Part shown: positions 45,076 through 46,899 of the stretch, in pieces
Numbering within the stretch: position 1 is the stretch's first letter
Layout of the letters: each line of letters begins with the position of its first letter
Source: Bacteroides sp.
GTDB lineage: Bacteria > Bacteroidota > Bacteroidia > Bacteroidales > Muribaculaceae
NCBI GenBank assembly: GCA_014802435.1
Contig: JAAVCG010000006.1
Coordinates: 121,195 to 185,194, forward strand
Length of the DNA stretch: 64,000 nt
Direction of reading: 5' to 3'
Program-made: the position numbers and the translations under genes
The notes under the pieces: generated by a model
Database searches by the model: none
Seen by the model: the letters and a program-made list of their open reading frames with translations, nothing else
Told to the model about the DNA's origin: nothing

Positions 45076-45523
45076 AATTAATTGTTTTTTTGCCTCCTGA
45101 TTCCCTAATTCGGCGATTATGATTGGGTACAAGAAAAGAGGGGAATTCATCGTACCTCTATCATAGCAAGACAGGCTCGCCAAAGCCTACAGACTGAATG
45201 ATATATGAGGGTAGAATAAACTGCCCCTCTGGTTTTGTCTATGCTAAAGTACGGCTATCAGAGCCGCAAAATAGATGTGACAAAAACAGAAAGAGCGTCT
45301 AATCTCACTCTATCTCAGTCTGTTATTGAATTGGCGATTCGTCTTGCTGAGAAAGAAAGCTCGACACTTTTCTTTTCCAAATGGTATTTCTCTTCCATTG
45401 GATAGCGCAAAGTTACGAAAAATTTTTGAGATAGACGCTCTTTTATGCAATTTATTCTACAAATTTAAGAATAATGAATGATTGAAAGCCTTGTTTGCAG
45501 AGCCTGTGTGTGTAAAAAAAAGT

Positions 45524-45550
45524 GGAGGGGCTTATCCTACAAACCCCTCC
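45524..45550 (-). terminator. Terminator of the 41 aa ORF unit
   Basis: Minus strand GGAGGGG..CCCCTCC followed by an uninterrupted T-run (45514-45521 as A on plus). Confidence 0.75.
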
Positions 45551-45569
45551 GAGATATTGCTAAAGAGCG

Positions 45570-45695
45570 TTATGCCTTAACCCAGAAGCAGAATGCTTTA
45601 GCAGTCTTAGGGTAGACACGTTTACCATTGCGATATACGTACTTTGCAAAAACACGCTTACACAATACTCCATTGATAATTTTGAGGTCCTGCAC
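45570..45695 (-). CDS. 41 aa small basic protein
   Basis: GTG start with strong SD AAAGGAGGTGTTTATA-GTG; product (V/M)QDLKIINGVLCKRVFAKYVYRNGKRVYPKTAKAFCFWVKA. Confidence 0.6.
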   Translation of the reverse strand: MQDLKIINGVLCKRVFAKYVYRNGKRVYPKTAKAFCFWVKA

Positions 45696-45847
45696 TATAA
45701 ACACCTCCTTTCTTCGGCAGGCTGCCGAGGGGTTCTTGCTTCCTACGGCAAGAAAAATGCCCGGTGGTAGGAGCACCGGGCAAGCTCTTTAAAGAGGTTT
45801 GTGGAGATTGTTGTTGGAGGTGTAATCCGTGCAAAATCTCAAAATTA
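45696..45847 (-). promoter_or_regulatory. Structured 5' leader of the 41 aa ORF
   Basis: Hairpins 45714-45728, 45733-45754, 45759-45781 enclosed by 8 bp pairing 45701-45708 (SD) with 45816-45823 (anti-SD). Confidence 0.55.
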
Positions 45848-45853
45848 TCGTTG

Positions 45854-45861
45854 CAAAGTTA
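45854..45861 (-). promoter_or_regulatory. Bacteroides-type -7 for the 41 aa ORF unit
   Basis: Minus strand TAACTTTG, with GTTG about 20 nt upstream. Confidence 0.5.
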
Positions 45862-45970
45862 ATTCATTTAGTGCAAAAATGCAACTATTGATGCAATTAT
45901 TAACTTTTTTAACACTATAATGTAACATTTGCAAAAAGGAGCTGAACTTGCGTTCAACTCCTTTATGGGG

Positions 45971-46124: not shown

Positions 46125-46547
46125 TTAAAGATGGAGGATGTTTCGGAGTATAAACCAGGTCAGATAGAAGGTCAAATAGGTGTAAGCTCCATAGCGTCCG
46201 CACATGAAGCCGTAGAGTTTAGGCAACTTTTTGCGGAATAATATGGCGATAATAAGCAGGGAGAAGAACGGGATTCCGAAGAGGAGGAAGTAGTTAAAGT
46301 GAATGGCGTGGGCAAATTCGCCATTGAGTAGGGCATGGAATGCGCGTTGGCTTCCACATGATGGACAATAGTATCCGGTCAGGAGCCAGACGGGGCATTT
46401 CGGGAAGAATTTGCCGTTGGTAATGGGGTCGAAACTCAGGTAAACGGAAAAAGTAATTATCACTATTATCGCAAGGATAATAGTGATAACAATTTTATGA
46501 TTATGTTCTTTCGTCAAATTCAAATCAGAAATTTGAAGCGAGAGCAC
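46125..46547 (-). CDS. DUF2752 family membrane protein
   Basis: CPVWLLTGYYCPSCGSQRAFHALLNGEF. Confidence 0.85.
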   Translation of the reverse strand: MLSLQISDLNLTKEHNHKIVITIILAIIVIITFSVYLSFDPITNGKFFPKCPVWLLTGYYCPSCGSQRAFHALLNGEFAHAIHFNYFLLFGIPFFSLLIIAILFRKKLPKLYGFMCGRYGAYTYLTFYLTWFILRNILHL

Positions 46548-46899
46548 CCAAGATGATCAGAATGAAGTAAATGATGCTGATACCAAGTCCGGTACAAGCG
46601 GCAGCGATAGACCAGTTTTTGGATGATTTTGCGGCCTGACGAGCCGCGTCGTAGTTGCCTGACATCCAGAGACTATTAACGTTTGAGGCTTTGACGATTG
46701 CGACGATACCGAAGGGGAGGCAGCAGAAGAGTGTGGTCAGGATGGCCCAAACCATGCCGTTATCCGGCGGGAGTTGCTGTTGAGGATAACCTTGGTTGTA
46801 GGGTTGCTGATTATAGGGCGGCTGTTGATTGTAGCCTTGGTTGTAAGGCGGTTGATTGAACTGGGGATTGCCTTGCTGATTGTAGTTCTCAGGTACCAT
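46525..46899 (-). CDS. CD225/dispanin family protein with N/Q/P/Y-rich N-terminus
   Basis: NQGYNQQPPYNQQPYNQGYPQQQ; WAILTTLFCCLPFGIVAIVKASNVNSLW...GNYDAARQAAKSSKNW. Confidence 0.85.
   Translation of the reverse strand: MVPENYNQQGNPQFNQPPYNQGYNQQPPYNQQPYNQGYPQQQLPPDNGMVWAILTTLFCCLPFGIVAIVKASNVNSLWMSGNYDAARQAAKSSKNWSIAAACTGLGISIIYFILIILGALASNF

Follow-up and report, generated by a model that had tools for sequence, protein, structure and literature searches.

A moron-like unit of Bacteroidetes prophages in which a conserved basic peptide is probably kept silent by its own transcript

A compact unit on the minus strand of this Bacteroides contig raises the question of what a structured leader, able to pair with its own Shine-Dalgarno (SD) sequence, does in front of a 41-codon open reading frame (ORF), and whether the RNA or the peptide is its product. 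The unit spans positions 45885-45514 of the window (the whole 64,000-nucleotide stretch of DNA that was analysed) and forms a stand-alone gene with a transcript of ~330 to 340 bases. The promoter, anti-SD, three hairpins, SD, GTG start, 41 codons and terminator were all located where the initial annotation had placed them. The promoter, read from the sequence (45854-45885, minus strand), is of the Bacteroidetes type, GTTG-N20-TAACTTTG, with GTTG at 45885-45882 and TAACTTTG at 45861-45854, and transcription of the window copy is predicted to start at ~45850-45847. The predicted fold of the 340-nt transcript has an energy of −130.5 kcal/mol, which is 9.5 standard deviations below that of dinucleotide shuffles, none of 100 being equally stable. 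We conclude, with a probability of roughly 0.6, that this is a moron-like unit of Bacteroidetes prophages in which a conserved basic peptide of ~41 residues is kept silent by its own transcript, controlled at two levels.

The ORF (45570-45695, minus strand; GTG at 45695-45693, stop codon at 45572-45570) encodes a basic peptide with 10 K/R against 1 D/E. The motif NGKxIYPKxAKxFxFxV is conserved in 27 to 29 homologues, and the conserved residues are encoded by several synonymous codons. Between the window copy and that of a Prevotella metagenome-assembled genome (MAG; L033), pN/pS over codons 12 to 41 is 0.19/0.80, and other pairs behave alike. Because purifying selection acts on the peptide, the peptide is an output of the unit. 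This settles one side of the choice between RNA and peptide that the initial annotation had left undecided; the leader RNA may be a second output. AlphaFold2 models the peptide as five short strands (pLDDT of 94), with no relative in the PDB by sequence or by fold; the top viral structure match is A0A8S5Q330, an uncharacterised 48-aa phage protein. Two phage protein families with no function recorded match some of the members, weakly for most: phrog_30400 (13 of 27, best E of 3e-6; window peptide at E of ~0.009) and phrog_4533 (7 of 27, best E of 1e-4). No Pfam, NCBIfam or PADLOC family matched the peptide, and no Pfam or NCBIfam match identified the product as bS21 or bS18.

The searches returned ~17 distinct homologues of the unit, mostly prophage-borne, and the unit is rare, being found in roughly 1 to 2% of the genomes searched. 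One of ten other genomes of the same genus has a copy, 69% identical (G007, L002), and its sequence is the same as that of the Prevotella MAG. Peptide searches added G086 and G088, and extending them to the order, class and phylum brought more members. A coding-free DNA pattern, made up only of loop 1, loop 2 and the SD, was scanned against 264 Gb of genomes and IMG/VR and gave 39 stretches (32 from genomes and 7 viral). Six of them are real (L024, L029, L030, L033, L039, and L040), and all six precede the same peptide; the others were read and discarded as chance matches. Two chance matches, from Thermosulfurimonas (L015 and L019), nevertheless combine a structured leader and a AAAGGAGGTG SD with a basic ORF of 44 aa, MAARRKGKCVLRPVRFVKWFRHWKTGEIIRAEKYGYKAFPLPLK, and a terminator-like hairpin behind it; they are possibly an analogous unit in another phylum. 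Patterns built on the peptide motif found L054, L057, L058, L059, L061, L062, L064, L066, L067, L068, L078, and L080 in IMG/VR, together with distant ones. After reading, L050, L052, L055, L056, L060, L070, L071, L073, L074, L076, L084, and L085 were discarded. Among annotated INPHARED phages, tblastn and blastn gave no convincing homologue, and plasmids gave one copy on a phage-like plasmid of P. distasonis and one distant Chryseobacterium copy. In a Parabacteroides distasonis sequence (L101, 1-360; NZ_OY725781.1), the leader is almost identical to that of L062, while other sequence takes the place of the final codons and the terminator; the annotation of its ORF, WP_234059989.1, begins at an upstream start. 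One viral contig (L077, 4385-4853) has two copies of the peptide gene in tandem, without the lock helix described below, and an in-frame stop codon interrupts the frame of another homologue (L086, in G586).

The neighbours of many copies include genes for integrase, CI-like repressor, endolysin, holin, portal and lysozyme, with L024 close to an integrase gene, and the unit is opposite in strand to its neighbours in L054, L058, L059, L062, and L067. The phage copies thus have the features of phage morons, namely, their own promoter and terminator, a position among phage genes and an often reversed orientation. The copy in the window is solitary in the chromosome, downstream of a tRNA-Ser gene, and L005 is also solitary, beside a gene for an Mrp-like ATPase; same-genus members with a readable tRNA-Ser flank have nothing similar after the tRNA. 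Just downstream of the unit lies a dispersed repeat of ~370 bp (45087-45463), with an 86% identical copy elsewhere in the genome and copies in three same-genus genomes (G008, G009, and G003). Upstream of the tRNA-Ser gene, a gene for a CD225-domain (PF04505) protein (46528-46899) adjoins a DUF2752 gene. The initial annotation had also suggested ribosomal autoregulation; in its literal sense this is unsupported, since no ribosomal protein matches the peptide and prophages harbour most of the copies.

The proposal that the SD is sequestered by an upstream anti-SD closing a multibranch of three hairpins is borne out by homologues with compensatory changes. In the minimum-energy fold of the window transcript, ACACCTCC pairs with GGAGGTGT. 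The fold and a swapped-partner test define the closing helix, here called P0. Its 5′ arm (45816-45849, minus strand) comprises GATAATTTTGAG..TTTTGCAC and the anti-SD ACACCTCC (45823-45816), and its 3′ arm (45675-45708, minus strand) comprises the SD, the start codon and the first codons. Beyond the anti-SD, the helix runs through the start codon and GATAATTTTGAG/CTCAAAATTATC (45849-45838 with 45686-45675), a stretch absent from the initial annotation, and pyrimidine-rich CCUC repeats extend past the 5′ arm to 45795. In most members, the 5′ end of the transcript pairs with the start codon and the first ~8 codons, at a predicted −25 to −56 kcal/mol; examples are CACGATTTTAAAGAAGCT with AGCTTCTTTAAAATCGTG (L024), GCATTTTCAAGGTT with AACCTTGAAAATGC (L080) and CGTTCGAAGAAACAT with ATGTTTCTTCGAACG (L066). 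Full-transcript folding of the window copy began at a downstream TAnnTTTG, and its P0 energy is an underestimate because that box was used as the promoter. In most lock-bearing members, a TAnnTTTG box lies directly upstream of the 5′ arm, 147 to 213 nt 5′ of the start codon. In the predicted full transcripts of most members, the SD is nearly fully paired, with an unpaired probability of ~0.

Covariation was judged by swapped-partner permutation tests in place of a covariance model for the leader, since variable hairpin lengths left MAFFT leader alignments mis-registered. For P0, the duplex energy between the leader and codons 1 to 12, excluding the SD, was summed over 29 members, including structure-less ones. 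The sum was −620 kcal/mol with own partners versus −448 ± 18 kcal/mol with swapped partners, and the lowest sum among 20,000 permutations was −534, although such counts are not exact probabilities because the members share ancestry. The first ~10 residues of the peptide vary in step with P0, while the remainder is conserved. P0 is absent in L061, and the RNA is partly or wholly missing in L046, L048, L078 and more distant peptide homologues. Lack of covariation and an unconserved frame had been named in advance as the outcome speaking against the unit; the opposite was found on both counts. As far as sequence comparison goes, the RNA is kept by covariation and the peptide by purifying selection.

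Between the anti-SD and the SD, hairpin 1 (45753-45781, minus strand; GCCCGGTG/CACCGGGC at 45781-45759) is followed by ATTTTT, and a generic scan scores it as a terminator. At least five T occur in the 9 nt after this hairpin in 16 of 18 members (mean of 6.5 overall), the exceptions being L005 and L061. As hairpin 1 is a predicted intrinsic terminator, a leader RNA of ~95 nt is expected beside the longer mRNA, so that the promoter would yield both. Hairpin 2 (TTCTTGC/GCAAGAA, 45733-45754) and hairpin 3 (TCGGCA/TGCCGA, 45714-45728), on the same strand, vary freely among members, and no conserved unpaired core was seen beyond the SD/anti-SD and the loop complementarity.

This complementarity, also missing from the initial annotation, links TCCTAC in loop 1 (45772-45767) with GTAGGA both in loop 2 (45746-45741) and in the loop (45540-45535) of the final intrinsic terminator, which was located by the terminator scan at 45514-45550 on the minus strand. 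The loop 1/final-terminator pair TCCTAC/GTAGGA is shared by the window copy, L033, L024, L029, L030, and L039, and other members carry CCCACA/TGTGGG (L047), CCTGCA/TGCAGG (L054), CCTGTA/TACAGG (L058), TTAGGAG/CTCCTAA (L064), CCCTAA/TTAGGG (L067), CTCCCA/TGGGAG (L080), and ATGTCCA/TGGACAT (L061). In L057 (TCCCAAG/CTTGGGA), the partner hairpin sits just 3′ of the stop codon, and in L059, the two sides are exchanged (GGTAGGAC/GTCCTACC). Altogether, there are ten distinct complementary pairs, one of them exchanged. The pairing requires a G-U pair in L062, and in L066, read by eye, hairpin 2 serves both contacts. Hairpin 2 or 3 also carries a partner of loop 1 in 11 of the 16 tabulated members, the partner being absent in L057, L061, L064, L067, and L080. 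With hairpins chosen automatically, none of 20,000 permutations reached the observed sum of loop 1/terminator complementarity, and a stricter form of the test gave none in 50,000. When each loop family was represented by a single member, the sum was attained by none or by one of 50,000 permutations, according to the way in which the loops were delimited. These contacts and P0 were evaluated separately, with folding programs that do not treat pseudoknots. A peptide homologue with an extended SD (L105, in G894) shows a 5′-3′ contact in another form, its leader CCAGTGAGGGA complementing TCCCTCACTGG just 3′ of the stop codon. We know of no other bacterial mRNA family with a 5′-3′ link between the loops of a leader terminator and a final terminator, and literature searches for mRNA families with such pairing returned no other case.

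The SD itself is unusual. The SD, called strong in the initial annotation, is AGAAAGGAGGTGT (45701-45713, minus strand), which perfectly complements, over 13 nt, the 16S rRNA 3′ tail (A/T)CACCTCCTTTCT in genomes of the family. Its pairing with 16S rRNA is predicted by ViennaRNA at −16 to −22 kcal/mol in the main group, past the −13 kcal/mol cut-off for rpsU, which comes from a different script, that of PMC9976891. In the 2.48-Mb genome, AAAGGAGGTGT occurs at this SD and at one other site, the latter unlike an SD. According to the predicted fold, the GGAGGTGT part pairs with the anti-SD and AGAAA is unpaired. Bacteroidia ribosomes use bS21, bS18, and bS6 to conceal the 16S tail, and those without bS21 favour extended SDs, a form that serves rpsU autoregulation in other Bacteroidota, while no rpsU of Bacteroidales qualifies as extended by the authors' criteria (PMC9976891). 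The unit resembles rpsU (bS21) in having an extended SD complementary to nearly the entire 16S tail; it differs in containing no ribosomal protein gene, in being phage-borne, in occurring in Bacteroidales, where rpsU lacks an extended SD, and in locking the SD with a leader anti-SD as well (PMC9976891).

Taken together, the sequences support the peptide as a product and, in the RNA, P0, a terminator in the leader and the complementarity between loops; they suggest control at two levels. At the first, RNA polymerase would stop at hairpin 1 and free the ~95-nt leader RNA, which would be expected to accumulate. At the second, the 5′ arm of the read-through transcript would fold over the SD, start codon and first codons, while the hairpin 1 loop would kiss the final-terminator loop (and in many members the loop of hairpin 2 or 3), thereby linking the two ends of the transcript. 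Support for the lock is good. In cells it would keep translation off, the 41-residue basic protein probably being made only once it is opened; both the opener and the function of the peptide are inferences. Tentatively, and with the odds against any single candidate, we prefer as opener a ribosome with a free 16S tail, such as one without bS21, which would land on the exposed AGAAA next to the SD and displace the anti-SD. This toehold would be hidden in L029 and L059, because their anti-SD additionally covers CTTTC. Processing at the 5′ or 3′ end, by analogy with type I toxin mRNAs, would be about equally likely. A fuller scheme is more doubtful: a phage switch that senses ribosomes with a free 16S tail. 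Its leader would mimic the 16S anti-SD and keep the SD paired until ribosomes free of bS21 took its place, and would also be released separately as a regulatory RNA through a terminator loop-matched to the final one.

Processing could also belong to a rather unlikely alternative, an orphan relative of type I toxins, in which a harmful peptide would be encoded by an inert primary transcript that a nuclease activates by trimming the 5′ arm or removing the kissing terminator at the 3′ end, with the attenuated leader RNA, made from the same promoter, standing in for the antisense antitoxin in trans. A short ORF, a primary-transcript fold covering the SD, a long-distance 5′-3′ contact and a mobile-element context are found in tisB. 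In hok and aapA, the primary transcript is untranslatable, with an anti-SD and a 5′-3′ contact (PMC6733600). The unit shares with all three the short ORF, the covered SD, the 5′-3′ contact and the mobile-element context; its leader RNA would hold the complement of the SD, start codon, loop 2 and terminator loop, and the prophage and solitary occurrence fits as well. On the other hand, the covering strand is the unit's own 5′ end and reaches codon ~8, the leader has a terminator, the 5′-3′ contact is made by covarying loop-loop pairing, and the peptide is basic, with a predicted beta fold and no membrane helix, unlike typical type I toxins and without a PADLOC match. Most lock-bearing members have no TAnnTTTG box on the opposite strand that could serve as a Bacteroidetes-type antisense promoter, though an antisense RNA from an unusual promoter or a distant locus is conceivable. 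Since no antisense RNA gene was found and toxicity is putative, we do not claim membership of this class. Antisense-controlled attenuators of the pT181 type combine a leader terminator with loop-loop recognition. The unit resembles them in both respects (cf. PMC3753616) and differs in that both complementary loops belong to a single RNA, where the final terminator carries one of the two, with no antisense gene found.

It is improbable that the basic peptide, compact in its predicted fold and coupled to the RNA in all six members found with the coding-free pattern, regulates itself by binding its folded mRNA and stabilising the closed form, as a ribosomal protein or a repressing phage coat protein would: P0 is already very stable without protein, no conserved loop sequence is seen as a binding site, because loop letters vary freely, and distant peptide homologues lack the RNA. 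Equally improbable is a phage small RNA as the main product, namely the leader RNA, whose CCUC anti-SD repeats would block SD-bearing mRNAs in trans, for instance those of a superinfecting relative, with the peptide as helper. The promoter, 5′ arm, pyrimidine-rich stretch and terminator do resemble those of a small RNA, but conservation of the peptide and the exceptional strength of the read-through SD show that the coding part is not incidental. The riboswitch- or thermosensor-like reading of the initial annotation, prompted by an SD sequestered in a multibranch leader, is very improbable, as no conserved ligand-binding core was seen, a check against Rfam matched only tRNAs at the gathering score, and P0, at −25 to −56 kcal/mol in most members, is too stable to melt near body temperature.

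The reading we retain, a peptide probably silenced at two levels by its own transcript, makes the unit a compact natural RNA device, and one that sequence searches easily miss, since pairing is kept while most bases vary. Through it, Bacteroidetes phages would gain a gene that depends on an SD in hosts where SDs are hardly used, which would make the purpose of the hidden 16S tail directly testable.
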